From assembly GCA_022823055.1 (NCBI GenBank), contig JAJDXX010000253.1:1-44107 (forward strand): a stretch of 44,107 bases of DNA, read 5' to 3'. Shown piece after piece: positions 13,561 through 39,745 of the stretch. Every line of letters starts with the position of its first letter. Position 1 is the stretch's first letter. The notes beneath the pieces were generated by a model, which was not told the origin of the DNA, made no database searches, and worked only from the letters and a program-made list of their open reading frames with translations. Made by a program: the position numbers and the translations under genes. This stretch comes from Candidatus Binatia bacterium (GTDB taxonomy: Bacteria > Desulfobacterota > Binatia > UBA9968 > JAJDTQ01).

Positions 13561-13650
13561 GCCGGTGGCCTCCGGCGCGGTAATGGTGAATAATGGGTAC
13601 AGGACAATCGCGGTCGTTGAGCCATGACACGAAAGGAGCAAGGTGAAACC

Positions 13651-14640
13651 ATGTTGCGAAAATCAGCGACGGCCTGGATGGTCGCCGCGGCCGTGTTGAC
13701 CGCACTGGCGGCGACGGCGGCGGCCCAGCCCCTGGGATTCCAGGCGGTGCCGCGGGACGCGTTCCCGGTCTTCGACGACCCGAAGATGCTGAGCGCCGCG
13801 GAAGCGGAAAAACAGGGAGTCATCTTCGATCGGGACGTGATCATCGGGGTGGCCCACAACGGCGAGGCCAAGGCCTATCCCATCACCATCATGGGGGTCC
13901 ACGAGCTGGGCAACGACACCATTGGAGGGGTGCCCATCGCGGTCTCCTGGTGACCGCTGTGCCAAACGTCTATCGTGTATAGACGCAAACTCGACGACAA
14001 GGTGCTGAGCTTCGGGCACGCGGGCATTCTCTACGAGAACTCGTTCATCATGTACGACCGCGAGACCGAGTCTCTGTGGGTTCACGTCACCGGCGAGGCC
14101 GCGCACGGCCCGCTCAAAGGCAAGAAGCTCGACTTCATGCCGTCGACGGTGACGAGTTGGGCCAACTGGAAAAAGAACTACCCCCTTACCCAGGTGCTGC
14201 CGGGTTACCGCCGCGGCGGGTTCATGGGCACCTACGTCGGTCCCTTCCAGAGCGACATCCTGGGACTCGCGGTGTTGGTGAAGCTCAAGGCCAAGCTCTA
14301 TCCCTACGGCGTATTGGAACGGCAAAACCTCGTCAACGACGAGTTCAACGACGCCAAGGTGGTCGTGTACTACTCGCCGGACGACGCCACGGGCACCGCG
14401 TGGCGCCGGGAACTGGACGGGCGGGTTCTTACCTTCGAACAGTCGGAACGCAAGGACGCCCAGGGCAACGTACTGTTGCGCGACAGGGAAACCGGGAGCC
14501 TGTGGTCGTGGCTGCGGGGCGAGGCGGTGGATGGGGAGCTCAAGGGGCGGAAACTTCGCCAGCTCTTGTACAATCCCATCCTGAACGACCGGTTCGTCGC
14601 GTTCTACCCCGGCGCCCCGATCTTCGACACCGCGAACTAG
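13651..14640 (+). CDS. DUF3179-domain exported selenoprotein (UGA at codon 101)
   Basis: Reading through one in-frame TGA (13951-13953) gives a 329-residue protein. ATG 13651 is preceded by AAGGTG at a six-base spacing and begins a signal peptide (MLRKSATAWMVAAAVLTALAA, cleavage near AAAQ); an ATG at 13624 is in frame but less well placed. DUF3179 motifs run without interruption across the UGA: GVHELGNDTIGGVPIAVSW, then UGA, then PLCQTSIVYRRKLD, FGHAGILYENSFIMYDRETESLWVHVTGEA. The family has Cys at the UGA position (CPLC), so Sec101-Pro-Leu-Cys104 would form a UxxC redox pair. A hairpin with SECIS geometry follows the UGA. No other frame disruption is present. A nonsense mutation is the alternative. 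selA, selB, selC and selD must lie elsewhere. Confidence 0.85.
13967..13985 (+). promoter_or_regulatory. bacterial SECIS-like hairpin downstream of UGA
   Basis: Seven bases CGTCTAT (13967-13973) pair perfectly with ATAGACG (13979-13985) around the five-base loop CGTGT. The loop starts 21 bases after the UGA, inside the 16-37 base range described for bacterial SECIS elements, and has a G at its second position with a following U, as recognised by SelB. The element lies within coding sequence, as bacterial SECIS elements do. It is AT-richer than the flanking sequence, which argues for selection on the stem rather than chance. Confidence 0.75.
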
Positions 14641-20529: not shown

Positions 20530-23500
20530 TCAGTCTGGCGTCCGTTTGAGCGCCTCGATCCAGTAGCGGCGGCGCTCGAACGGGTAGCCGGGCAGCGCGA
20601 TCCGGCGCCGGCTCTCTCCCGCGAAGAGGCCGGCAAAGGAGACCCCCAGTCCCGCCTCGTAGGCGCCAGCCACCGCCTCGACGAACCCGTTGTCCGACGG
20701 TGCGTTGCGCCGGAGGCTCGACAACACCGCCGGCGCCCCGTGGTTGCCGCCAGCGTCCGGCGGCGACGGCCACGCGGAGACCACCGCCGGAGCCAGCACT
20801 GCCTCCGGACCGATCTCCACCACCACGTCCACCTCCAGGGCCGCCAGCGTCGAGACGCATTCCGCGAACGCGGCGGGCTCACGCCCTTGGCCGCGCCAGT
20901 ACGCCCCATCGAGCACGTCACTGGGCTCCAAGGTCCGTCCGGTCACGCCGCTCACCAGGACCAGGGACGGCGGCGCCCACGCGACGCCGGCGAGGAGGGC
21001 TTCCAGGTCGTCCGGATCGGAGTCCGGGGCTTCACCCGCGGCCGTCGGCGCCAACAGCGCACCGCGCGCCATCGCCAAACGCAACCCCTCTTCCAGTCCG
21101 AACACTCCGGCCGCCTGCGCGGCCGCCAACTCTCCCAAGTCCTGCCCCACCACCACGGTCGGGCGAATCCCGACACTCGACCACAGCGCCGTAAGCGCGC
21201 ACTCCAGCGCATAAACGGCCGGCTGCATCCACGCCGGGGCGTCCAGGTCTTCCTCCGAACCGGCCCGGCCGAACATCACGTCCAGCAGCGATGCGCTTCG
21301 CGTTTCTCGAAGCACCGCGTCGCAACGATCCAAAACCGCCCGCACCACCGGTTCGCTTTCGTACAACACCTGGCCCATGCCGGCCCACTGGCTGCCCTGG
21401 CCGGTGTACGCGAAGGCGACCCTCGTCGCCGCCGGCGGCGCCGGCCTCTCCCCCGCATCCGCCAACGTCTTCAGCCCGTCTCGCAGCGACGCGGCATCCT
21501 GGAACACCACGCCCGCCCGGTGGTCGAAATGGCTCCGTCCCACGCCGGCCGTCCAGGCCATGTCCGCCAGCAGCGACCGCACGGCGGCATCTTCGTCCGG
21601 CGAATCCCCGGCGCGCTCTTCAAGCCACGACAGATACCGCTCCGCGAGTTCCCGAAGCGCCTGGTCCGACTTCCCCGACAGGGGCAGCAGCCGGGTTCCG
21701 CGCGCCCGCGCCGCATCTTCGACCGGCGGCAACTCCGGGACCGGTTCGGACAGCGGAACCGCAAGCACGGAACCCACGGGGGACCCGTCATCATCCGGCC
21801 CGGCATCGGCCGCTCCGTACCCCTCCAACACGACATGCGCGTTGGTTCCCGATATCCCGAACGCGCTTACTCCTGCCCGCGGCGGCCGATCGGGGTCGCG
21901 CGGCCACTCCGTCGGCTCGGAGGTCACCCGAACCGAGAGCCTGTCCCAGTCCAGATGCGGGTTCGGCTCCCGGAAATGCAGGTGTTTCGGAATCACGCCC
22001 CGCTTCATCGCCAGCACGGTCTTGATCAGCCCCGCGACTCCGGCGGCCGACTCCAGGTGGCCGATGTTGGTCTTCACCGAACCGATCAACAGCGGACGGT
22101 CCGTTTCCCGTCCCCTGCCGTACACCGCCGCCGCCGCCCGCAACTCGATGGGGTCGCCCAACTCGGACCCGGCTCCGTGAGCTTCCAGGTAGTCCACTTC
22201 CGCCGGCGGCACGCCCGCCCGCGAGAGCGCCTCTTCGATCGCCTGCTCCTGTGCCGGACCGTTGGGCACCGTGGGCCCGGCGCTCGCGCCGTTCTGGTTT
22301 ACCGCCGAGCCGAGGATCACCGCCCAGATGCGGTCGCCGTCGGCCTCCGCATCGGCCAGCCGCTTCAGGACCACCATCCCGCAGCCCTCGCTCCTCACGA
22401 AGCCGTTCGCGGACGCGTCGAAAGTCTTGCACTGCCTGTCCGGCGACAGCATCCCCAATTCCGCCATCTCCCGGGTCAACCCGGGCGACAGCACCGCGTT
22501 GACGCCGCCGACCAGAGCCAGGTCCACTTCACCCTGCCGCAACCCGGCCACCGCCTGGTGCGCGGCCACCAGTGACGCCGCGCAGTTGAGCATGACCGGC
22601 ATCGTCGGTCCCTGGAGGCCCAGCTTGAAGGCAACGCGGCCCACCGCCATGCTGCCGGCGGTGCCCAGGTAGCTGGCGACGTCGCCGCCGGCCATCATCA
22701 GGTCCCGGTACTCGCTGGCGGCAACGCCGGCGTAGACCCCGGTGCGGCTGCCCTTCAGCCGGTCCGGATCGATCCCGGCGTCTTCGAGGGCCTGCCAGCT
22801 CGTCTCCAGAAGGAGCCGCTGCTGCGGATCCATCATTCGCGCCCCGATGGGCGTGACCCCGAAGAAACCCGCGTCGAACCGGTCGATCCCTTCGACGAAC
22901 CCGCCGCGCCGGGAAGCCGCATCCCCGGCTTCGGGATCTCCCAATACACCCTTCCAGGGACCGGCGTCCCCGCGACCGTCCGTCACCGCGTCTACGCCGG
23001 CTTCGAGCTGGCGCCGGAACGCCGAAAGATCCGGTGCGCCGGGGAAGCGGCACGCCATGCCGACGATGGCGATGCCCTCGTCCGCGCGCAGAGCGGCGGG
23101 TTGCTGCTCCGGCTCCGCCTGAACGGCTGGCGCGCCGCTGATGTCACCGAGCTCGCCGGCCACGTGGCGAGCGAGTGCGGCGATGTCGGGATAGTCGAAC
23201 ACCACGGTGTTCGGCGCCGTGTACTCCCCGGAGAATGCCCGATTCAGCCGGTTCCGCAGCTCCACCGCCATCAGCGAGTCCATCCCAAGATCGAAGAAGC
23301 CCACCGCGGGCGCGGGCGCCGACGGCAGCCTCAACACCGCCTGGACTTCCTGCTGCAGGAAGGAAACGAGCAGTTCTTCGCGCGCCGCCGGCGGCGCGGC
23401 CCCCAGCCGGGAGAGCAGGTCTTCCGATGCTCCCGGAGAGTCCGCGGAGTCATCCTCGGCCGCCGGCAGCAGGTCGTCGAACAGGGACGGACGCCCGCCG

Positions 23501-26500
23501 AGGGCCTCTCCGAACACCGACCAGTCCGCCGCCAGGACCACCGCGGTGGTGGGGTCCTCGCGCAGCAGCCGGTCGAACACCCTGAGGCCCTGCTCCGGGC
23601 TGAACCAGCCGGTTCCGGCTGCCTCCCGCCGGGCGGCGATCCGCTCCCGCTGCTCCTCGGCCTCACCGAGCTCCGACCATGCCCCCCAGGCGATGGCCTG
23701 TCCGGGAAGCCCCAGCGCGCGCCGGTGGGCGGCGAGCTGATCGAGGAACGCGTTGGCCGCCGCGTGGTTCGCCTGCCCCGGATTGCCCAGAATGCCGGCC
23801 ACGCTCGAGAACAGGACGAAGAGGTCCAGATCGAGGTCGGCCGTAGCCCGGTGCAGGTGCCAGGCGCCCAGGACCTTCGGCCAGAGGACCTGCTCGAACC
23901 GCTCCCAGCTCTGGTTCGCGAGCGAGTTGTCCGCCAGCACTCCCACGCTGTGGATCACGCCTCCAAGCGGCGGCAGCTCGCCCTTGATCCGCTCCAGCAT
24001 TCCGTCCACCGCGCCGGCATCGGTCACGTCGGCCAGCTCCACCCGCACGGTGATCCCGCGTTCCGTGAGCGCGCCGATCACTTCCTCGGCTTCCGCGTCG
24101 GGAGCGCGCCGGCCGTTCAACACGATCGCCCCCGCTCCCCGCTCCGCCAGCCAGCCTGCCAGGGCGCACCCGATCCCGCCCAGGCCGCCGGTCACCAGGT
24201 AGGTCCGGTCCTGCCGCAGCCGGCCCTCCGCGAGCGGCGGCGCGGTCAATACGATCTTTCCGATGTGCCGGGCGTCGCGCATGAACTCCATCGCCGCCCC
24301 CGCCTCGGCCAGCGGCCACCTGCTGTGGATCAGGGGTTGCAGCTCTCCGGCCCCCAGCCGTTCCACCACGTTCCGGAGCGCCGCTCCCGGCCGGGCCGGC
24401 TCCTGTTTCTTCAGGACGTCCAGCTCCAGGATGGAGTAGGCCACGTCCGGCCGCGCGGCCGCCATTTCCTCCTCGCTCAGGATGTCCCGCCTCGCCAGTT
24501 CCACGAACCGGCCGCCGCGAGCCAGGCAGGACAGGCTCGCCTCGATGAAGCCCGGCCCTGTAAGGCTGTTCACCACCAGGTCCACACCCGCGCCGCCGGT
24601 GGCTTCGAGGATCTCCTCCCCGAACGAGGTCTGGCGGCTGTCGAACACGTGGGCCACCCCCAGCGACCGCAGGTAAGCCCGCTTGGGCGCGCTGGCGGTG
24701 GCGAAGACTTCCGCGCCGGCCGCCTGCGCCAACTGCACCGCCGCGAGCCCGACGCCGCCCGCGGCGGCGTGAATGAGCACCCGTTCGCCGGCCTTGAGCC
24801 CTGCAAGATCGAAGGACAGCGCGGCGGTCACGAACGCGGTGGGGATGGTGGCAAGGGCAGCCACCGGCATCCCCGCGGGCGCCGGCACAACCAGCTCCTC
24901 TCTCGTCACCACTTCCGGTCCGAATGTGCCGAACGCCAGGGCCACCACCCGGTCGCCCACCGAGACGGTCGAGGTCTCGGAACCGACCTCAACAATGCGG
25001 CCGCACATCTCCTCGCCCATCACGCCTTCGCCCACCAGCCCCATGGCCCGGAACACGTCGAGGAAATTCAGCCCGCGGGCTTCGACCGCGACGCGGACTT
25101 CCCTTGGCTCCAGCGAACGCGCCGGCGTCGGCTTCACTTGAAGCCCTCCGAGGTCGCCGCCGTCTCCGCACGCCAGCAGCCAGTCCGGCCCCTCCGGCAA
25201 GGCAAGGCGCGGCGCGGTCCGGACCAGGCGGGCCACCCGGCGGCGCCCGGCCCGGTAGGCGATTTGCATCTCCGGGTCGGGAAACAGCAGTTCCTCTGCG
25301 AAGTCGGCCGGCAGCTCCGTCTCCTCGGGGTCGAGATCGATCATCTTCGGCTTGACCTGAGCCGCTTCCCTGGCCACCACCCTGCCGAAACCCCACAACG
25401 TCGCTCCGGCAAGCTGTCCCGCCCGCTCCCGCTCCAGCACCTGCGCGCCCCGGGTGAGGAACCACGTTCCCTTCGCGGGGGTCAGATCGGCATCGATCAT
25501 GCCCTGCATGAGCGCCAGCGCGCTCGCCGCTGCCCGTCTCGCATCCTCTCCCATTTCCCCCGTGGCCGCCTGCGGCCCGTGACCGTCCAGCGCGGCAAGA
25601 TGCACGATACCGCCGAGCGGCACATCATCGGGCAACTCCTCCAGAACCGAGCGCCACGACTCGCGCCGATCCATCTCCACGGCTCTTCGGACGACTCCGG
25701 CGCCGTCGTGCGCGGGTCCCCCGTTCTCCGGCGATTCCCCGCCCGCCAGCACCACCGTCTGGTTCCGCGCCGCGAGCTGGGCCGCCAGCGCCGCGGCCAC
25801 GCCGCCCCGGTCCGCCGCGAGGACCCAGGCGGCCGGCGGCAGCACCACCTCCGCCGGCCCCTGCGCCACGATCACGCCCCGGTCGGGCAGCCCAACCGAC
25901 TCGGACTCGTCGATTCCCAGGACCTGGGCGTCGGCGAAACCCACGTCGCCGAGCGCCCGCCGCCACACGTCGGGTCCGGCCAGGGCGTGGTTCGAGCGGT
26001 AACGGTCGGCGTACCGCCACCAGCCGTCCAGTTGTCCGAAAATCAGGTCCATCCAGCCTCTACCGCGCTGGTTCTCCAGCGCCACGAGCTGTCCCGACGG
26101 CGCCAGCAAATCCCGGCAGTGCGCCAGCGTCTCGTCGAGATACTGCGTCGCGTGCAGCACGTTGGCGGCAATCAACAGGTCATAACCGTGCAAGTCGAAG
26201 CCCTGAGCCGCGGGTTCCTTCTCGATGTCCAGGACGCGGTACTCGATCTGCCCGTCCACCTGGCCGAAACGCGCCTCCGCGTCCGCGAAGAAGCCCGCGG
26301 AGATGTCGGTGTACATGTAGTCGAACCGCCCGGCCGGAAGCCCCGGCAGCACGCACTCGGTGGCCGACCCGATGCCGGCCCCCACCTCCAGCACCCTGAG
26401 CCGCCGTCCGTCCGGCAACCCGGCCGCGAGGGTCTCGACCACCTCTCCCAGCATCCGGTTCGCCGCCATCCACACCGGCGCCCTCCGGTAAAGATCGGCG

Positions 26501-29500
26501 GCCTGCGGTTCCGCGTCGCCGAACAGCAGCGACAGCGGATCCTCGCGGCCGCGAAGCACCTCCGGGAGGGCGCCGGCGCATCGCCGGATGAGCCCGATCT
26601 CGTTCGTGCCGTGGGGATAACGTCCGCTCATGCCGGTCGCATGTTCGTCGGGATCTTGCGGCATGCCCTCCGGCAACGGATCCTCCGCCCCGACCACCAC
26701 CAGGAAGCCGTCGCCCGCCGCCTCCAGCACGCCCGACCTGACGAGTATTTCCAGCATCCGGCGCAACAGATGCACGTGATTCGGCAAAATCTCCAGGTCC
26801 TGCCGCAGGCCCTCGGGGTCCACGGCGGCGCCCGCCATGCGCTTCCAACCCAGCTTTTCCAGGGCCGAGAGCGCATAGGACCATGCCAACCGCTCCAGGT
26901 CGGTCTGCAGGGCGGCCTCTTCCTCGACTCCGACTCCTTCGGCGGCCAGGTAACGGGAGAACGGCTCCGAACGGGAGGCCACGTCCGACGGGCTCGGGAT
27001 GAAATCGGCGGACGGCATTCCCGGCGCAAGGACGCCGTCCCGCCACACCACCTCGTAGAGCAGCTCGTCCAACCCTTCCACCGCCGAGAGCATCGCTTCC
27101 CGGGTGGCCCGCTTCACCGTGTACCCGTCCAACCCGCCCAGCAGGGTCCCGCTCGGGTCGTAGATCCGCAGGTCCCCGGTCAGCACCTCCGGCGGCTCGG
27201 ATTCCGCATCCGGGACCGCGGTCTGCCGGTCCCCCGCCATGCGCGCGTGGCAGACGACCCGCTCCGGCAGCGCCCCCTTGAGCCACAGCCGTTCCCACCC
27301 GAACGGCAGATAGGTGACCCCTTCCCAACTTTCCGCCGAATCGCGCGCCGCGGCCATGACCTGGAAACAGCCGTCGAGCAGGAGCGGATGGATGTCGACC
27401 CCGCCGGAGTCGACGCCTGCCGGAAGAGCCAGCTCGCCAAGCGCCTTGCCCGTCCCGGACCAGACCGCTTCCAGCGTGCGGAACGACGGGCCAAGATCGA
27501 TTCCGACCTCGGCCTTGGCCCGGTAGAGGGCGGCCACGTCCCGCGGCGACAGCCCGGCCTTGAGGCCTTCCAGGTCCTCCCGCGGTTCGGCCTGGAGGCC
27601 GCCGGCTTCCGGCGACACCCGCGCCTCCGCGTGCAGCGTCCATTCGGCTCCGGCATCTCCCCTGCTGAGTATCCGGACACGGCGCGACGGCCCCTCGCCG
27701 GAACCGTCGAGCAGCACCTGCATCTTCCGGCTTGGTTCGGCGGTCCCGTCTCCGGAATCCCCGTCCGGGAAAATCAGCGGGTTGTGGAGCTGCATGTCCT
27801 CCACCGCGTACCGTCCGGTTTCCTCCGCGAATGACGCCGATGCCGCCATGGCACCGTAGAGGGCGCCCGGCGCAACCAGCCGGCCGAACACCCGGTGGTC
27901 GTTCAGCCAGGGCGGGTCCGAGGGAAACAGTTCCGTATCGAACGTAGTCTCCCCGCTGGCGGATTCGTGCCGGCCGCCGAGCAACGGATGGCCGGCGCCC
28001 AGGAGCCGGCGCCTTCGCGCCTTGACCCAGTGGCTCTGGCGCTGGAAGGGATAGCCCGGCACCGAGATACGGCGCCGCCGCTCGCCGGCGAAGAGTCCCG
28101 GAAAATGGATCGGGAGCCCGGCCTCATACGCCTCTGCCGCCGCGGCGACGAAAGAGTCCCTGGCCTCACCCGCCGGCGCGTCGCGCCGCGGCCGCCTGAG
28201 ACTCGATAGCACCCGGACGCCGGCCGCCGACTCCGGCCAGATCATGGCGACCATCGGACCCAGCACCGCGTGGGGTCCGATCTCCACCACGGCGTCCATG
28301 TTCAGTTCGGCCAGCGTCTCCACCGCGCCGCGGAACGCCACGCGCTCTCGCGCCTGACGGCGCCAGTAGGCCCCGTCCAGCGCCGTGCCCGGCTCAACCG
28401 GCCGGCCGGTCACCGTGCTGACGAACTCCACCGACGGCGGCGCGAGGGCGACTCCCGAAAGCGCCGCTTCCACGCCGTCCAGCGCCGGTTCCACCAGGGC
28501 GCTGTGATAAGCCGGACTCTTCCTCAACCGCGCCACTCCCACGCCCTCGCTCTCGAAGCGCGCCAGGACCGCCTCGACGTCCGTCGCGGAGCCGCTCACC
28601 ACCTGGCTCGCGCCGTTGTCCGCGGCCATGCTCAAGCCGGGTCCGGCGGAGGCCGCGTTCAACTCCTCCACCGTGGCCGCCACGCGCGACTCGGTCGCGA
28701 AGATCGCCACCATCGCCCCCTGTCCGGGCAATGCTCCCATCAACGCGCCGCGGGCCGCGGCGAACCGCAGGCCGTCCTCGAGGCCGAAGACCCCCGCGGC
28801 CTGGGCCGCCGCGATCTCCCCGAGGCTGTGCCCCACCACCACGTCCGGGCGGATCCCCAGGCTCGCCCAGAGGGCGGTCAACGCACACTCCAGCGCGTAG
28901 ATCGCCGGCTGTGTCCAGGCCGCGTCGTCGAGGTCTCCCGCGCGGCCGAAAATCACGTCCAGCAACGACGCGCCCCGTTCCTCCCGGAGCACCGCATCGC
29001 AACGGTCCAGGACCGCCCGGGCCACCGGCTCGCAGTCGTACAGGTCCTGCCCCATCCCCATCCACTGGCTGGCCTGTCCCGTGTACGCGAACGCCACCCT
29101 GGCGGGCGCCTCCGAGGCCGTTGCCGGTTCGCCGTCCCCGTCCGCCAGCGCCCGCAGGCCCTCGCGCAGGTTCCCGGCGTCCCGGAACACCAGACCCTTC
29201 CGATGGCTGAAGTGACCCCGTCCCACCGCCGCCGTCCAGGCCATGTCCGAAAGCAGCGGATCCCCGCCGCCGGAAGAAAGATCCCCGGCGTGCTCGTCGA
29301 GCCATCCCAGGTACCGCCCGGCCAGCTCCTGCAGCGTCTCGGACGACTTGCCCGAGAGCGGCAGCAGGCGCGTCTCGCGGGCGGCGAGCGCTTCCGTGGC
29401 GGGCGCCGCCGTCCCCTCCGGGAGCGAAACGGCGATGGACAATGATGAGCCTGAAGCCCACTCTTTCCTGTCGGAGCCCGCCGGGACGTCCCCCGTAGAG

Positions 29501-30918
29501 TCGTAACCCTCGACCACGAGATGGGCGTTGGTCCCGGACCAGCCGAACCCACTCACACCCGCCAACGGAGCGCGGCCTGAATGACGCGGCCAATCCATCG
29601 GATCGGAGGTAACCCGCAGCGGCAACCGGTCCCAGTCGATCTGAGGGTTGGGATTCCGGAAATGAAGATGCTTCGGGATCGTGCGCCGGTTCATCGAGAG
29701 CACCACCTTCATCAGCCCGGCGACCCCTGCCGCGGGCTCCAGGTGACCGATGTTGGTCTTCACCGAACCGATCAGCAGCGGCCGCTCCGCTTCGCGCCCC
29801 CGGCCGTAGACCGTCCCGGCGGCCTGCGCCTCGATCGGGTCCCCGACCTCGGTGCCGGTGCCGTGCGCCTCCAGGTAGTCCACTTCCGCGGGCAGGACTC
29901 CTGCCTGTGACAAGGCCTCTTCGATGCACCGCTCCTGCGCTGCGCCGTTCGGCACCGTCAGTCCCGGGCTCGCCCCGTCCTGGTTGACCGCCGCGCCCCG
30001 GATCACGGCCCAGATGCGGTCGCCGTCCGCCTCCGCGTCGCTCAGCCGCTTCAACACCACTATCCCGCAGCCCTCGCCCCGCACGTACCCGTTCGCGGCG
30101 GCGTCGAACGTTTTGCATTGTCCGTCCGGCGCCAGCATTCCGGCATTGCCGCGCAGTTCCGAGAGCCGTCCCGACAGGATCGTGTGCACGCCTCCGGCGA
30201 GGGCAAGAGCGGCCTCGCCCCGCTGCAGGCCCGACACCGCCTGGTGTATCGCCACCAGTGACGACGAGCAGGCGGTGTCCAGCGCCATGGCGGGTCCCTC
30301 CAGGCCCAGCACGAAGGCAACCCGTCCGATGGCCGTGTTGAAGGAAGTGCCGCTGACGGCGTAGAGGCTGGCGGCGGGTCCGGGGACCTCTTCCCCGCCC
30401 AGGATCAGCGCGCGGTAGTCGTTGTTGCTGATGCCGGCGTACACTCCGGTGCGGCTGCCCTTGAGCCGGTCCGGATCCATTCCCGCGTCCTCCATCGCCC
30501 GCCAGCTCGTTTCCAGCATCAACCTCTGTTGCGGGTCCAGCAGTTGCGCCTCCACGGGCGAAATCCGGAAGAACGGGGCGTCGAACAGGTCGATCTCATC
30601 GAGGTAAGCAGCGAAGAGGCACGCTTCGTTCTGCACGGCGGCGTCAGGGAAGAGCTCCCCGATGCGTCCGACGCCGGAACCGGGGATTACCTGGGTGACG
30701 GAGTTCCCGCCAGCCTCCAGCAGACGCCAGAAGGAGGAAAGGTCCGGCGCGCCCGGGAACCGGCACGCCATCCCCACGATGGCGATGGGCTCCCCGGACG
30801 GCGAGACCTGCCGGTGGCCGCGCTCCGCTTCGGGGCCTTGCTTTCGGGAAGGAACGGAAGACTCGTCGCTCATGTTCTTCTCCAGGCTGTTGTCCGGGCG
30901 ATCCCTCGGAAGGGTCAT
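20530..30918 (-). CDS. type I polyketide synthase, KS-AT-DH-cMT-ER-KR-ACP-KS-AT(inactive)
   Basis: Encodes 3462 aa from ATG 30918, whose ATGA overlaps the permease stop; ATG 30873 behind GGAGAAG is an alternative. KS1 (about 42-468) has Cys217 in DTACSSS plus EAHGTGT and NIGHLE. AT1 (607-895) has Ser698 in GHSLG and PAYHS, closer to malonyl- than methylmalonyl-type. DH (975-1235) has His1008 in HRVFGRLVAP and Asp1182 in DGCFQ. The C-methyltransferase (about 1440-1670) has LEVGAGIGSATE. ER (1926-2225) has HAAAGGVG. KR (2237-2461) has TGGLGGIG, but His2385 replaces the catalytic Tyr in GQANHAAAN. ACP has Ser2548 in GMDSL. KS2 (2614-3033) keeps Cys2779 in an unusual LNCAASL. AT2 (from 3167) reads GQDLG for GHSLG, lacks about 70 residues, and should be dead. 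No terminal ACP or TE. A reduced, C-methylated acyl product is inferred. Confidence 0.97.
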   Translation of the reverse strand: MTLPRDRPDNSLEKNMSDESSVPSRKQGPEAERGHRQVSPSGEPIAIVGMACRFPGAPDLSSFWRLLEAGGNSVTQVIPGSGVGRIGELFPDAAVQNEACLFAAYLDEIDLFDAPFFRISPVEAQLLDPQQRLMLETSWRAMEDAGMDPDRLKGSRTGVYAGISNNDYRALILGGEEVPGPAASLYAVSGTSFNTAIGRVAFVLGLEGPAMALDTACSSSLVAIHQAVSGLQRGEAALALAGGVHTILSGRLSELRGNAGMLAPDGQCKTFDAAANGYVRGEGCGIVVLKRLSDAEADGDRIWAVIRGAAVNQDGASPGLTVPNGAAQERCIEEALSQAGVLPAEVDYLEAHGTGTEVGDPIEAQAAGTVYGRGREAERPLLIGSVKTNIGHLEPAAGVAGLMKVVLSMNRRTIPKHLHFRNPNPQIDWDRLPLRVTSDPMDWPRHSGRAPLAGVSGFGWSGTNAHLVVEGYDSTGDVPAGSDRKEWASGSSLSIAVSLPEGTAAPATEALAARETRLLPLSGKSSETLQELAGRYLGWLDEHAGDLSSGGGDPLLSDMAWTAAVGRGHFSHRKGLVFRDAGNLREGLRALADGDGEPATASEAPARVAFAYTGQASQWMGMGQDLYDCEPVARAVLDRCDAVLREERGASLLDVIFGRAGDLDDAAWTQPAIYALECALTALWASLGIRPDVVVGHSLGEIAAAQAAGVFGLEDGLRFAAARGALMGALPGQGAMVAIFATESRVAATVEELNAASAGPGLSMAADNGASQVVSGSATDVEAVLARFESEGVGVARLRKSPAYHSALVEPALDGVEAALSGVALAPPSVEFVSTVTGRPVEPGTALDGAYWRRQARERVAFRGAVETLAELNMDAVVEIGPHAVLGPMVAMIWPESAAGVRVLSSLRRPRRDAPAGEARDSFVAAAAEAYEAGLPIHFPGLFAGERRRRISVPGYPFQRQSHWVKARRRRLLGAGHPLLGGRHESASGETTFDTELFPSDPPWLNDHRVFGRLVAPGALYGAMAASASFAEETGRYAVEDMQLHNPLIFPDGDSGDGTAEPSRKMQVLLDGSGEGPSRRVRILSRGDAGAEWTLHAEARVSPEAGGLQAEPREDLEGLKAGLSPRDVAALYRAKAEVGIDLGPSFRTLEAVWSGTGKALGELALPAGVDSGGVDIHPLLLDGCFQVMAAARDSAESWEGVTYLPFGWERLWLKGALPERVVCHARMAGDRQTAVPDAESEPPEVLTGDLRIYDPSGTLLGGLDGYTVKRATREAMLSAVEGLDELLYEVVWRDGVLAPGMPSADFIPSPSDVASRSEPFSRYLAAEGVGVEEEAALQTDLERLAWSYALSALEKLGWKRMAGAAVDPEGLRQDLEILPNHVHLLRRMLEILVRSGVLEAAGDGFLVVVGAEDPLPEGMPQDPDEHATGMSGRYPHGTNEIGLIRRCAGALPEVLRGREDPLSLLFGDAEPQAADLYRRAPVWMAANRMLGEVVETLAAGLPDGRRLRVLEVGAGIGSATECVLPGLPAGRFDYMYTDISAGFFADAEARFGQVDGQIEYRVLDIEKEPAAQGFDLHGYDLLIAANVLHATQYLDETLAHCRDLLAPSGQLVALENQRGRGWMDLIFGQLDGWWRYADRYRSNHALAGPDVWRRALGDVGFADAQVLGIDESESVGLPDRGVIVAQGPAEVVLPPAAWVLAADRGGVAAALAAQLAARNQTVVLAGGESPENGGPAHDGAGVVRRAVEMDRRESWRSVLEELPDDVPLGGIVHLAALDGHGPQAATGEMGEDARRAAASALALMQGMIDADLTPAKGTWFLTRGAQVLERERAGQLAGATLWGFGRVVAREAAQVKPKMIDLDPEETELPADFAEELLFPDPEMQIAYRAGRRRVARLVRTAPRLALPEGPDWLLACGDGGDLGGLQVKPTPARSLEPREVRVAVEARGLNFLDVFRAMGLVGEGVMGEEMCGRIVEVGSETSTVSVGDRVVALAFGTFGPEVVTREELVVPAPAGMPVAALATIPTAFVTAALSFDLAGLKAGERVLIHAAAGGVGLAAVQLAQAAGAEVFATASAPKRAYLRSLGVAHVFDSRQTSFGEEILEATGGAGVDLVVNSLTGPGFIEASLSCLARGGRFVELARRDILSEEEMAAARPDVAYSILELDVLKKQEPARPGAALRNVVERLGAGELQPLIHSRWPLAEAGAAMEFMRDARHIGKIVLTAPPLAEGRLRQDRTYLVTGGLGGIGCALAGWLAERGAGAIVLNGRRAPDAEAEEVIGALTERGITVRVELADVTDAGAVDGMLERIKGELPPLGGVIHSVGVLADNSLANQSWERFEQVLWPKVLGAWHLHRATADLDLDLFVLFSSVAGILGNPGQANHAAANAFLDQLAAHRRALGLPGQAIAWGAWSELGEAEEQRERIAARREAAGTGWFSPEQGLRVFDRLLREDPTTAVVLAADWSVFGEALGGRPSLFDDLLPAAEDDSADSPGASEDLLSRLGAAPPAAREELLVSFLQQEVQAVLRLPSAPAPAVGFFDLGMDSLMAVELRNRLNRAFSGEYTAPNTVVFDYPDIAALARHVAGELGDISGAPAVQAEPEQQPAALRADEGIAIVGMACRFPGAPDLSAFRRQLEAGVDAVTDGRGDAGPWKGVLGDPEAGDAASRRGGFVEGIDRFDAGFFGVTPIGARMMDPQQRLLLETSWQALEDAGIDPDRLKGSRTGVYAGVAASEYRDLMMAGGDVASYLGTAGSMAVGRVAFKLGLQGPTMPVMLNCAASLVAAHQAVAGLRQGEVDLALVGGVNAVLSPGLTREMAELGMLSPDRQCKTFDASANGFVRSEGCGMVVLKRLADAEADGDRIWAVILGSAVNQNGASAGPTVPNGPAQEQAIEEALSRAGVPPAEVDYLEAHGAGSELGDPIELRAAAAVYGRGRETDRPLLIGSVKTNIGHLESAAGVAGLIKTVLAMKRGVIPKHLHFREPNPHLDWDRLSVRVTSEPTEWPRDPDRPPRAGVSAFGISGTNAHVVLEGYGAADAGPDDDGSPVGSVLAVPLSEPVPELPPVEDAARARGTRLLPLSGKSDQALRELAERYLSWLEERAGDSPDEDAAVRSLLADMAWTAGVGRSHFDHRAGVVFQDAASLRDGLKTLADAGERPAPPAATRVAFAYTGQGSQWAGMGQVLYESEPVVRAVLDRCDAVLRETRSASLLDVMFGRAGSEEDLDAPAWMQPAVYALECALTALWSSVGIRPTVVVGQDLGELAAAQAAGVFGLEEGLRLAMARGALLAPTAAGEAPDSDPDDLEALLAGVAWAPPSLVLVSGVTGRTLEPSDVLDGAYWRGQGREPAAFAECVSTLAALEVDVVVEIGPEAVLAPAVVSAWPSPPDAGGNHGAPAVLSSLRRNAPSDNGFVEAVAGAYEAGLGVSFAGLFAGESRRRIALPGYPFERRRYWIEALKRTPD

Positions 30919-35297: not shown

Positions 35298-38045
35298 CTA
35301 CAGCGGCTCCACGCGCGCCGCGCAGAACTTGTACTCGGGGATCTTGCCGTAGGGGTCCAGCGCCGGGTTGGTCAACAGGTTGACCGCCGCCTCGGCGAAA
35401 CAGAAGGGAATGAAGACGCATCCGTCGGGGACCGCGCTATCGGCCCGTGACTTGATCTCGATGACGCCCCGGCGGGTAGAGACGCGCACCATCTCTCCCG
35501 CGGCCACGCCGAGCCGGCGCAACTCCGCCGGCGAGAGATTGGCCACCGCCTCGGGTTCCAGTTCGTCCAGCACACTGGCGCGCCTGGTGATGGCGCCCGT
35601 GTGCCAATGCTCCAGTTGGCGGCCGGTGCTGAGGATCATGGGGAATGATTCGTCCGGCTGCTCGTCGGGCGGGATGATGTCCACGGGCACGAGCTTCCCC
35701 CGCCCGCTGGCGGTGGGGAAACCGTCGCCGAACACCACTTCGGTTCCCGGCCGATCCGGCGCCGGGCACGGGTAGGTCACGGAGCTTTCGCGCTCCACCC
35801 GCTCCCAGGTGATGTGGTCCAGGGACGGCATGACCTGCTTCATCTCCGCGAAGACGTCCGCAGGGCCGGCATAGCTCCAATCGAGCCCCATGCGACGCGC
35901 GATCTCCTGGATGATCCACCAGTCCTGGCGTACTCCGGGCGGGGGCTCCAGCGCGGCCCGCCCCATCTGCACCTGGCGGTTGCTGTTGGTGACGGTGCCG
36001 TCCTTCTCGGGCCAGGCCGAGGCCGGCAGCACCACGTCGGCGTGAAACGCCGTCTCGGTAAGGAAGATCTCCTGAACCACCAAGTGCTCGAGTCCGGCCA
36101 AGGCCTCGCGCGCGTGCTGCACGTCGGGGTCCGACATGGCCGGGTTCTCGCCCATGATGTACATGCCCTTGATCCACCCCGCGTGCACGGCGTCCACGAT
36201 CTCCATCACCGTAAGACCCCGTTGCGGGTCCAGCGCCGTGTTCCAGACTTCCTCGAAACGCCGCCGCACCGCTTCTTGCTCCACCGAGCGGTAATCCGGA
36301 TAGAACATCGGGATGAGGCCGGCGTCGGAGGCCCCCTGGACGTTGTTCTGGCCGCGCAGGGGATGGAGGCCGGTGCCGGGGCGTCCCACCTGCCCCGTGA
36401 TCAACGCCAAGGCTATGAGGCAGCGAGCGTTGTCGGTGCCGTGGATGTGCTGGGAGATGCCCATGCCCCAGAAGATGATGGCCGAACGGGCGCCGGCGTA
36501 GAGCCGCGCCACCGCGCGCAGGGTTCCGGCGTCGACGCCGCAGACCTGTGCCATGGCCTCGGGCGTGAACTCCGCCACGTGCTGCTTCAGTTCCTCGAAA
36601 CCTTCCGTGTGGGCGGCCACGTAGTCCCGGTCGTAGAGCCCTTCCCCGATGATGACGTTAAGCAGTGCGTTGAGCAGCGCCACGTCGGCGCCCGGCTTGA
36701 ACCGGAGCATCCGGGTGGCGTGGCGCCGCAGGGCCTGGCCCCGGGGGTCCATGACGATCAGCTCGGCGCCGCGCTTGGCCGCCTGCTTGAAGTAGGTGGC
36801 GGCCACCGGGTGGTTCTCGGTGGGGTTGGCGCCGATGACGATGACGACGTCCGAGTCCTCGCAGGCGGTGAAGGGCGCGGTCACCGCGGCGGAGCCGATG
36901 CCTTCCATGAGCGCGGCCACCGAGGACGCATGGCACAGCCGCGTGCAGTGGTCGACGTTGTTGGTGCCGAAGCCCGTGCGAACGAGCTTTTGCACCAAGT
37001 AGGCCTCCTCGTTGGAGCCCTTGGCCGAGCCGTAGGCCGCCAGCGCGTCGCCGCCGTCGCGGTCGCGGACCTTCCGCAGCCCCGCGGCCGCCGCGTCCAG
37101 GGCCTCGTCCCATGAGGCCTCGCGGAAATGGGTGTAGGGGTTGGCCGGATCGATATCCGCCGACGCGTCCTTGGGCGCGTCCCCGCGGCGGATCAACGGC
37201 ACCGTCAGCCGGTGTGGATGCGTCACGTAGTCGAAGCCGAAGCGCCCCTTGACGCACAGCCGGCCGCGGTTGGACGGCCCCGGGCGTCCGCGCACGGCGG
37301 CGATGGCGTTGTCCTTGACCTGATAGCCGATCTGACAGCCCACGCCGCAGTAGGGGCACACGCTCGGCACCTCGGCGAGCGCCTCGCGCTTGTCCACGCC
37401 GTCCGCGTCCACCAGCGACGCGGGCATGAGCGCGCCGGTGGGACAGGCCTGCACGCATTCGCCACAGGCCACGCAGGTGCTGTCGCCCATGGGGTCGTCG
37501 AAGTCGAAGACGATCTTGGCGCCGGCGCCGCGGTGGGCCATGCCGATGACGTCGTTCACCTGCACCTCGCGGCAGGCGCGCACGCACAGATTGCAGTGGA
37601 TGCAGGCGTCGAGGGCCACGCGCATGGCCGGATGGCTGGCGTCCGAAGCCGGCGCCGCGCGCGCCGGGAAGCGGCTGTCCGTCACTTCCATCCGCTCGGC
37701 CCACTGCCACAGGCGCGAGCCGGCGTCGTGGGCGGTCTCCCTGGCGGGCTGGTCCGCCACCAGCAGCTCCATGACCATGCGCCGCGCGCTTCGAGCGCGT
37801 TCGCTGTCCGTATGCACCTTCATGCCCGAGGCCGGGCGGCGAATGCACGAGGCGGCCAGCACGCGTTCGCCCTCCACCTCCACCATGCACGCGCGGCAGT
37901 TGCCGTCGGGCCGGTAGCCGGCCTGCGGGTCGTAGCACAGGTGCGGCAGCACCGTGCCGTGGCGCTCCGCCGCCTGCCAGAGGGTCTCGCCCGGGGCGGC
38001 TTCCACCTCGCGCCCGTCGAGAGTGAAACGCATGGGTTCGCTCAC
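35298..38045 (-). CDS. fdsA: NAD-dependent formate dehydrogenase alpha subunit (FdsA type)
   Basis: Encodes 915 aa from GTG 38045, overlapping the preceding stop as GTGA; an internal ATG at 38033 is an alternative. The N-terminus is a NuoG-like module: a [2Fe-2S] site (LPHLCYDPQAG, GNCRACMVEVEG), then two ferredoxin clusters (CIHCNLCVRAC; CVACGECVQACPTGA). The molybdopterin part begins CPYCGVGCQIGY...GRLCVKGRFGF, with the active site CTRLCHASS, where Cys371 is the Mo ligand (Cys, not Sec) and the adjacent His is conserved. FIPFCFAEAAVNLLTNPALDP closes the cofactor-binding domain. It oxidises formate to CO2 and passes electrons to the diaphorase subunit encoded just upstream. A dedicated FdhD sulfurtransferase is not in view. 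Confidence 0.95.
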   Translation of the reverse strand: MSEPMRFTLDGREVEAAPGETLWQAAERHGTVLPHLCYDPQAGYRPDGNCRACMVEVEGERVLAASCIRRPASGMKVHTDSERARSARRMVMELLVADQPARETAHDAGSRLWQWAERMEVTDSRFPARAAPASDASHPAMRVALDACIHCNLCVRACREVQVNDVIGMAHRGAGAKIVFDFDDPMGDSTCVACGECVQACPTGALMPASLVDADGVDKREALAEVPSVCPYCGVGCQIGYQVKDNAIAAVRGRPGPSNRGRLCVKGRFGFDYVTHPHRLTVPLIRRGDAPKDASADIDPANPYTHFREASWDEALDAAAAGLRKVRDRDGGDALAAYGSAKGSNEEAYLVQKLVRTGFGTNNVDHCTRLCHASSVAALMEGIGSAAVTAPFTACEDSDVVIVIGANPTENHPVAATYFKQAAKRGAELIVMDPRGQALRRHATRMLRFKPGADVALLNALLNVIIGEGLYDRDYVAAHTEGFEELKQHVAEFTPEAMAQVCGVDAGTLRAVARLYAGARSAIIFWGMGISQHIHGTDNARCLIALALITGQVGRPGTGLHPLRGQNNVQGASDAGLIPMFYPDYRSVEQEAVRRRFEEVWNTALDPQRGLTVMEIVDAVHAGWIKGMYIMGENPAMSDPDVQHAREALAGLEHLVVQEIFLTETAFHADVVLPASAWPEKDGTVTNSNRQVQMGRAALEPPPGVRQDWWIIQEIARRMGLDWSYAGPADVFAEMKQVMPSLDHITWERVERESSVTYPCPAPDRPGTEVVFGDGFPTASGRGKLVPVDIIPPDEQPDESFPMILSTGRQLEHWHTGAITRRASVLDELEPEAVANLSPAELRRLGVAAGEMVRVSTRRGVIEIKSRADSAVPDGCVFIPFCFAEAAVNLLTNPALDPYGKIPEYKFCAARVEPL

Positions 38046-39745
38046 GGCAGATCCTCCCGGAAGTAGCGATAGGCGCAGCGCACCGAGTTGGGCGCCGCCT
38101 GTCCGAGGCCGCAGATGGATGCGTCGGCCATGGCGGCACCCAGGGCCTCCAGCAACGGCTCGTCCCACGACGGCCGCTCCATCAGCGCCACCGCCTTCTC
38201 CGTGCCCACGCGGCAGGGCGTGCACTGGCCGCAACTCTCGTGCTTGAAGAAGCGCATGAGGTTGCGCACCACGGCCTTCACGTCGTCCTGGTCGCTCAGC
38301 ACCACCACGCCGTGGGAGCCGACGAAGCAACCCTGGTCGTCCAGAGGGCCGAACTTGAGCGGGATGTCGGCCATGGAGGCGGGCAGCAGGCCGCCCGAGG
38401 CGCCGCCGGGAAGGTACCCCTTGAAGCGGTGACCGGGAGCCATGCCGCCGCAGTGCTCGTCGATCAGCTCGCGCGCGGTGATGCCGGCGGGGGCGATCTT
38501 GACGCCCGGTTGCGCCACCCGGCCCGACACCGAATAGGCGTGGAGACCGGCGCCGCCGTTGCGGCCCTGGGCAGTGTACCACTCCGGCCCCTTCTCCAGG
38601 ATGTCCCGGATCCAGTACAGGGTCTCGACGTTCTGCACCAGCGTGGGACGGCCGAACAGCCCCGTCTCCGCCACGTACGGCGGCCGGTGCCGCGGCAGCC
38701 CGCGCTTGCCCTCGATGCTCTCGATCATGGCCGACTCTTCGCCGCAGATGTAGGCGCCGGCGCCCCGGCGCAGGACCAACTCCACGTGCGCGGCCATCCC
38801 CGCTTCCCGGAGCCGGAACAACTCCCGGGACAGGATTTCTCTGACCTCGGCGTATTCGTCCCGCAGGTAAATGTAGGCCGTTTCCGCCTCCACCGCCCAG
38901 ACCGCGATCAACACGCCCTCCAGGAACCGGTGCGGGTCGCTCTCCATGAAATAACGGTCCTTGAACGTGCCGGGCTCGCCCTCGTCCGCGTTCACGGTCA
39001 TGAGCCGCGGGCCGGGATAGCCGCGCACGATCTGCCACTTGCGCCCGGTGGGAAAACCCGCGCCGCCGAGCCCCTGGAGGCCGGAAGCCGTCACCTGCTC
39101 CACCACGTCCCCACGGCTACGTGTGCCGTCGAGGCACTCCTTGAGAAGCGTGTAGCCTCCCTCCGCGACGTACGCGTCGCAGGCCTTGTAGGCCGGTATC
39201 GCCGGTTCCGTCTCCCCACCCCGGACCAGGGCCGTCACCGAATCCACGGTCGCGCTCTCCACGTAGCGCTGCCCAACCCTGGCCACGGGCGCTCGGTCGC
39301 AGCCGCCCATGCACGGTGCCGGCAGCACGCGCGCGCCGTCGCCGAGCGCCTGCGGCAGGTCGGCCAGAAGCCCTTGCGAACCCATCATCTCGCACACGAC
39401 ACCATCGCACACGCGCACGGTCGGATCCGCCGGCCGCGCCGAACCGTCCCGGTCCACGTCGAAATGCGCATAGAAGGTCGCCACCTCATAGACTTCGGCC
39501 AAGGCCAGACGCATCTCCTCCGCCAGCGCCGCCAGATGGGCGCCGGACAGGAAATGGTAGCGGTCCTGAATCGCGTGCAGGAACTCGATCAGGAGGTCCC
39601 GCCGCCGCGGCCGGTCCCCCAGCAGCGCCCGGACCTGCTCCAACGCCTCCAGGTCGACCTGGCGCCCTCTCGGACGGTTTCGCCCGCGGCCCCGGCCGGC
39701 ACCCGGGTGCCCGCGCCGCCGCGGCGGCTCGTGCGTTTCGGCCAT
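38042..39745 (-). CDS. formate dehydrogenase diaphorase, FdsG-FdsB fusion
   Basis: Encodes 567 aa. Residues 1-30 are basic and Gly/Arg-rich. Residues about 30-175 are a NuoE/FdsG-like thioredoxin-fold [2Fe-2S] domain (VYEVATFYAHFDV; RVCDGVVCEMMGS; PAPCMGGCDRAP). From about 190 onward it is NuoF/FdsB-like: GLQGLGGAGFPTGRKW and MTVNADEGEPGTFKDRY for NADH and FMN, RGAGAYICGEESAMIESIEGKRG, and the [4Fe-4S] ligands in HESCGQCTPCR plus a later Cys (ICGLGQ). Other organisms often encode these as two genes; here they are fused in one chain. It passes electrons from the formate-oxidising subunit to NAD+. ATG 39745 follows the small gene at 39797 by 51 bases. Confidence 0.95.
   Translation of the reverse strand: MAETHEPPRRRGHPGAGRGRGRNRPRGRQVDLEALEQVRALLGDRPRRRDLLIEFLHAIQDRYHFLSGAHLAALAEEMRLALAEVYEVATFYAHFDVDRDGSARPADPTVRVCDGVVCEMMGSQGLLADLPQALGDGARVLPAPCMGGCDRAPVARVGQRYVESATVDSVTALVRGGETEPAIPAYKACDAYVAEGGYTLLKECLDGTRSRGDVVEQVTASGLQGLGGAGFPTGRKWQIVRGYPGPRLMTVNADEGEPGTFKDRYFMESDPHRFLEGVLIAVWAVEAETAYIYLRDEYAEVREILSRELFRLREAGMAAHVELVLRRGAGAYICGEESAMIESIEGKRGLPRHRPPYVAETGLFGRPTLVQNVETLYWIRDILEKGPEWYTAQGRNGGAGLHAYSVSGRVAQPGVKIAPAGITARELIDEHCGGMAPGHRFKGYLPGGASGGLLPASMADIPLKFGPLDDQGCFVGSHGVVVLSDQDDVKAVVRNLMRFFKHESCGQCTPCRVGTEKAVALMERPSWDEPLLEALGAAMADASICGLGQAAPNSVRCAYRYFREDLP

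Follow-up and report, generated by a model that had tools for sequence, protein, structure and literature searches.

A DUF3179-family selenoprotein in Candidatus Binatia: probable selenocysteine decoding of a conserved UGA codon and a predicted Rieske-like fold

Background

Selenoproteins with a DUF3179 domain form part of the documented bacterial selenoproteome. An entry for the 'DUF3179 domain-containing protein, pfam11376, UxxC/T' is included in a selenoproteome table published in 2022, in which these proteins are credited to the study of the Olavius algarvensis worm symbiont by Zhang and Gladyshev (2007, NAR 35:4952) (PMC9312934), and they were tabulated again in 2026 (PMC13188914). Here, a DUF3179 gene interrupted by a single in-frame UGA codon was analysed in a window of 44,107 nucleotides, positions 1 to 44,107 of contig JAJDXX010000253.1 of a Candidatus Binatia genome. 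An earlier note on this DNA, made from the sequence alone, had suggested that DUF3179 is not an established selenoprotein family, which is incorrect in view of both tables. The gene thus represents a new member of the DUF3179 selenoproteins, a family known since 2007, and not a new selenoprotein family.

Results and discussion

The DUF3179 gene and its product

The gene is located at positions 13651..14640 on the forward strand and encodes a product of 329 residues, ending in a TAG stop codon (14638-14640). On translation, the frame of 329 codons contains one internal stop, the TGA at 13951-13953 (codon 101; forward strand), which lies in the context VSW-U-PLC-Q when TGA is read as U. The protein read in this way matches the Pfam profile PF11376 (DUF3179) with a score of 235 bits (E 1.6e-69; cut-off 27), and the match spans both sides of the TGA, while a search against NCBIfam returned no family. 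The earlier note had described a frame that is otherwise open for 329 residues, with DUF3179 sequence on either side of one UGA, and both the translation and the profile match agree with this description. A likely ribosome-binding site, AAAGGAG (13632..13638, forward strand), was read from the sequence 12 nt before the ATG, and this motif is itself preceded by another in-frame ATG, at 13624. Residues 1-26 (13651..13728, forward strand) make up a probable signal peptide, as judged by inspection and in keeping with a predicted helix at residues 3-21. The export previously claimed for this protein is thus plausible, and on the basis of its N-terminus the product is probably exported. The sole cysteine of the protein, Cys104 (13960..13962, forward strand), is a possible resolving residue and is not conserved in the family.

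Conservation of the UGA codon

Nine genomes from the genus were analysed, comprising the source genome and eight other species; each has the in-frame TGA in DUF3179, and one carries two copies. In a second collection the TGA was also found in six loci that are close (84-97 % identity) and in three from SAR324 (65-67 % identity). Metagenome assemblies labelled Candidatus Binatia or 'Deltaproteobacteria' are the closest public records. At the level of the phylum, DUF3179 occurs in 45/395 sampled genomes, with an in-frame TGA inside the match in more than half of the 45. In the fifty homologues that were examined closely, codon 101 is occupied by TGA in twenty-seven and by TGC or TGT in twenty-three, with no other codon observed, so that the alignment proposed in the earlier note does yield the TGA/Cys pairing at codon 101. 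Close relatives carrying TGC or TGG without a hairpin, which that note had named as evidence against a selenoprotein, were not encountered; the relatives retain both the TGA and the hairpin described below. In a tree of thirty-six sequences, from which the UPLC columns were left out, only two changes between Sec and Cys were required, as against 11.3 in shuffles.

These data bear on the possibility that an ordinary Cys-type DUF3179 gene acquired the TGA through a sequencing error or by pseudogene mutation. In favour of this reading, the draft assembly is fragmented (253 contigs) and Cys homologues are common, but the same TGA recurs in independent assemblies, both within the genus (eight other species) and in SAR324. 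Furthermore, substitutions between close relatives fall mostly in third codon positions, both before and after the TGA, and this coding-type pattern downstream of the codon, together with the covarying hairpin, renders an error or pseudogene extremely improbable.

Two loci show a second stop within DUF3179, after the Sec-type TGA: a TAG after SLWS in L051 (1690-1824) and a TGA after TTWK in L056 (1391-1606). These extra stops are possibly pseudogene mutations, assembly errors or further recoding.

The SECIS hairpin

Bacterial SECIS elements are described as having a loop of 3-9 nt, a stem of 4-16 bp, a G at position 1 or 2 of the loop and a distance of 16-37 nt from the UGA (PMC13188914). The hairpin at 13967..13985 (forward strand) conforms to these rules, with a 7-bp stem CGTCTAT/ATAGACG (13967-13973/13979-13985) and a 5-nt loop CGUGU (CGTGT in the DNA; 13974-13978) with G at loop position 2. 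The stem starts 14 nt past the UGA, and 20 nt separate the UGA from the loop. When all 931 TGA triplets on both strands of the window were considered, sixteen (~1.7 %) were followed by a hairpin obeying the SECIS rules with at least seven Watson-Crick pairs, while the exact geometry of the hairpin at TGA 13951 was shared by none of the others. A search against Rfam gave nothing meaningful at the UGA and hairpin site.

The published minimum free energy cut-off for SECIS elements is -7.5 kcal/mol or lower (PMC13188914). The isolated hairpin (27 nt) folds at -6.9 kcal/mol, just short of this value (z -3.0 against shuffles), and in a context of 40-50 nt it is slightly outcompeted by an alternative fold at -7.5 kcal/mol. 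As the single-sequence fold is borderline and a competing fold exists, the case for a SECIS element is carried by the comparative evidence. Among the TGA genes, 92 % of the stem cells in the alignment are paired, and five of the seven pairs show double-sided, compensatory changes. The covariation score of these genes is 0.583, compared to 0.188 ± 0.030 in shuffles (none of 500 shuffles scored as well), and the signal is lost when the partner is slid by 1-3 columns. By contrast, the same columns in the Cys genes show 44 % pairing and a shuffle-like score of 0.165. All TGA genes have G as the second loop base and T as the next, which agrees with the published bacterial model (PMC13188914). By eye, the helix is seemingly displaced by about one base in L054 and L056. 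As judged by covariation, the hairpin is a SECIS element, and the bacterial-type structure that had been recognised in the single sequence, with its 7-bp stem and G at the second position of the CGTGT loop, is borne out by the TGA genes as a group.

Selenocysteine machinery in the source genome and its relatives

The lack of Sec machinery in the genome had also been put forward as grounds for rejecting a selenoprotein, but selA, selB, selD and a tRNA-Sec(UCA) were all found. The selA (C247:9171-10502; 579 bits), selB (C247:7107-8993; 387 bits) and selD (C247:6066-6992; 373 bits) genes are clustered on a single contig (C247), while the tRNA-Sec with anticodon UCA is encoded on another (C248). 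The selD gene of the source genome (L019) itself carries an in-frame TGA, and its product is probably also a selenoprotein. In the genome G095 (C41:56948-58612), a tRNA-Sec gene and a TGA-containing DUF3179 gene lie approximately 900 bases apart. The presence of selA was considered as a means of discriminating genomes with TGA from those with Cys at the site and proved uninformative, with nearly all sampled DUF3179-bearing genomes of the phylum possessing this gene. One genome (G198; locus L052), rated as 100 % complete, encodes a TGA-type DUF3179 gene with the hairpin, yet selA, selB and tRNA-Sec were not detected in it. The DUF3179 gene of this genome is located on a contig of ~2.8 kb, and the anomaly is most simply read as misbinning or an assembly gap.

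Codes in which UGA specifies tryptophan occur elsewhere, and reassignment of UGA to tryptophan or another amino acid in this lineage was also considered. Trp is never seen at the site in the homologues, which have Cys there, and tRNA-Sec and SelAB are present, so that the likelihood of a reassigned codon is close to nil. Because the site is restricted to TGA and Cys codons, the hairpin is conserved in the TGA genes only and the Sec machinery is present, selenocysteine insertion at UGA 13951 is very likely. SelB and tRNA-Sec would decode this codon as Sec101 under the direction of the hairpin that starts 14 nt after it. The gene is considered, with high confidence, to encode a genuine selenoprotein of the DUF3179 family.

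Tandem repeats and predicted fold

Comparison of the protein against itself gave an alignment 25 standard deviations above shuffles, and the profiles of its two halves matched each other with an hhalign E-value of 2.3e-31. On these comparisons, the DUF3179 protein consists of one domain duplicated in tandem. The first repeat (residues 36-188; 13756..14214, forward strand) bears H84, U/C101, D136, S141 and W143, while the second (residues 200-329; 14248..14637, forward strand) has SPDD where the first has UPLC. The second copy retains equivalents of D136, S141 and W143, and in the alignment only the first copy contains the complete set of invariant residues.

The predicted structure has a mean pLDDT of 90.7 for the whole protein and 94.4 for repeat 1. 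This has a bearing on whether the UGA may be a true stop, with the gene yielding a 100-residue fragment and a second product reinitiated further on, for example at GTG 13975. An open frame beginning with this GTG does exist (13975-14640), but a stop at codon 101 would split the single, confidently predicted domain of residues 36-188 between two strands, and members with Cys at the site read on. Such a two-product arrangement would also leave the conserved SECIS-type hairpin and the Sec machinery unexplained, and it is accordingly given very little probability relative to decoding of the UGA as selenocysteine.

Foldseek alone found no significant match for either the whole model or repeat 1. 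With VIA-align 2, Rieske-fold proteins or proteins containing a Rieske domain accounted for all fifty of the matches listed, for the whole model and repeat 1 alike, and the leading entries were NirD and Rieske proteins. Examples include 3c0d against repeat 2 (Z 8.9, rmsd 3.2, 96 residues) and 2qpz against repeat 1 (Z 8.4, rmsd 3.0, 92 residues); in repeat 2 the fold matches fall on residues 211-315. The best Rieske/NirD alignments cover about 90-98 residues at 2.7-3.6 Å, with Z-scores of 8.4-8.9, which lie only slightly over the stated background of the tool (Z 7-8). A sequence search against PDB chains gave no match at E-values up to 1, sequence similarity was not detected between the repeat profiles and a Rieske ferredoxin of the same genome, and no mention of a link between DUF3179 and Rieske proteins was found in the literature searched. 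Identity as a Rieske iron-sulphur protein was rejected, as there is no CxH motif and the only Cys besides Sec101 is C104. From the predicted models, the two halves likely resemble the Rieske/NirD fold, with the iron-sulphur ligands missing. In a linear reading of the aligned ranges on the predicted model, Sec101 is placed on a hairpin ahead of the ligand positions, with D136 near the second ligand motif.

Invariant residues and possible chemistry

Throughout the DUF3179 alignment no variation is seen at H84, D136, S141 or W143, and position 101 is always U or C, while position 104 may be C, T, S or A. In several proteins with UPLS, UPLT or UPLA, Sec101 is the sole Cys-type residue of the mature chain. 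Given that several Sec members have no other Cys, an intramolecular U-C bridge cannot be the shared mechanism of the family. The UxxC redox arrangement that had been proposed is therefore present in this protein and is not general to the family.

No enzymatic data on any DUF3179 member were found in the literature searched. The pattern of invariant residues is consistent with a periplasmic oxidoreductase that would use a single selenol or thiol together with an external reductant, which is put forward tentatively as the most likely function. Following export to the periplasm, Sec101 would react with a substrate and be regenerated by an external thiol or a thioredoxin-like protein, and in the subfamily to which this protein belongs C104 could serve as a local resolving residue. 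Alternatively, Sec101 or Cys101 may act mainly as a metal ligand or as a nucleophile without a redox role, for instance together with H84 and D136, with the decoding of the UGA unchanged. The invariance of H84, C/U101, D136, S141 and W143, alongside the variability of the possible resolving Cys104, would suit such a role, as would the resemblance of the predicted fold to metal-binding Rieske domains. The Rieske pattern CxH...CxxH is missing, however, Sec101 precedes the Rieske ligand positions in the linear reading given above, and thiol-based oxidoreductases make up the majority of known selenoprotein families (PMC9312934), and a metal-binding or non-redox role is thus regarded as unlikely, although not negligibly so. 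Returning to the redox reading, it is proposed, with somewhat less than even likelihood, that the chemistry is performed by a lone Sec, with no resolving Cys in many members, on an exported, duplicated and ligand-less Rieske-like (NirD-like) domain. If true, this would make these selenoenzymes a structural class apart from the thioredoxin fold, which dominates among bacterial selenoproteins.

Genomic neighbourhood

The gene neighbourhood of DUF3179 is kept within the genus only. Neighbourhood was rejected as a functional clue, with the SAR324 and distant loci having unrelated neighbours (for instance NUDIX, DUF2385, CutA1, SurA-type and sigma factor proteins), and no substrate is indicated by the neighbourhoods outside the genus. 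In two of about thirty loci, a protein of the thioredoxin fold, recognised by eye as AhpC/TSA- or TlpA-like and with an in-frame TGA of its own, is encoded immediately ahead of DUF3179 and in the same orientation (L052, 1501-2094, reverse strand; L044, forward strand, TGA at 936). The TGA contexts of these proteins are GHW-U-PYC and ATW-U-PIC, respectively, and the other neighbourhoods have no gene in common. As a weak hint, the two proteins are possible redox partners of DUF3179.

Elsewhere in the window, a single polyketide synthase of 3462 residues is encoded at 20530-30918 (reverse strand), with KS, AT, DH, methyltransferase, ER, KR and ACP domains followed by a second KS-AT. A molybdopterin oxidoreductase of 1246 residues (35298-39038, reverse strand) has a 2Fe-2S domain only from residue 334, with ~330 residues ahead of it. 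No internal stop occurs in the frame of this enzyme, and by that test it contains no Sec.

Comparison with known systems

Several features of the DUF3179 family may be new. Sequence comparison points to an invariant Sec101/Cys101 with an optional second Cys (C/T/S/A), and to several Sec members lacking any other Cys in the mature chain, which would exclude a U-C pair as the shared chemistry, and the protein is a tandem duplication with predicted Rieske/NirD-like halves. The function of the family would thereby be constrained to an essential residue, Sec/Cys101, acting alone with H84, D136, S141 and W143 in the first Rieske-like repeat. The comparative set also provides a clear SECIS covariation signature for DUF3179, a family in which standard annotation would truncate or split the protein across the whole genus and its SAR324 relatives.

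The protein shares with the DUF3179 selenoproteins of 2007 its Pfam family, Sec as the leading residue of the motif and the UxxC arrangement, and as far as their published description extends it differs in lineage and sequence only. The Cys-type DUF3179 proteins, found for example in Haloferax, Bacteroidota and Alphaproteobacteria, share the domain and its invariant residues and have Cys where this protein has Sec, but unlike the TGA genes they carry TGC or TGT at the site and have no SECIS hairpin. The predicted models align with the Rieske/NirD fold (Rieske ferredoxins; NirD, PDB 3c0d, 4aiv and 2jo6), from which the DUF3179 protein is distinguished by its lack of CxH/CxxH ligands, its tandem duplication and the Sec in repeat 1. 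Similarly, UxxC, probable export and a probable redox role are held in common with the UxxC thioredoxin-fold selenoproteins (Prx, TlpA/AhpC-TSA types), whereas DUF3179 does not have a thioredoxin fold and the second Cys is optional within the family.
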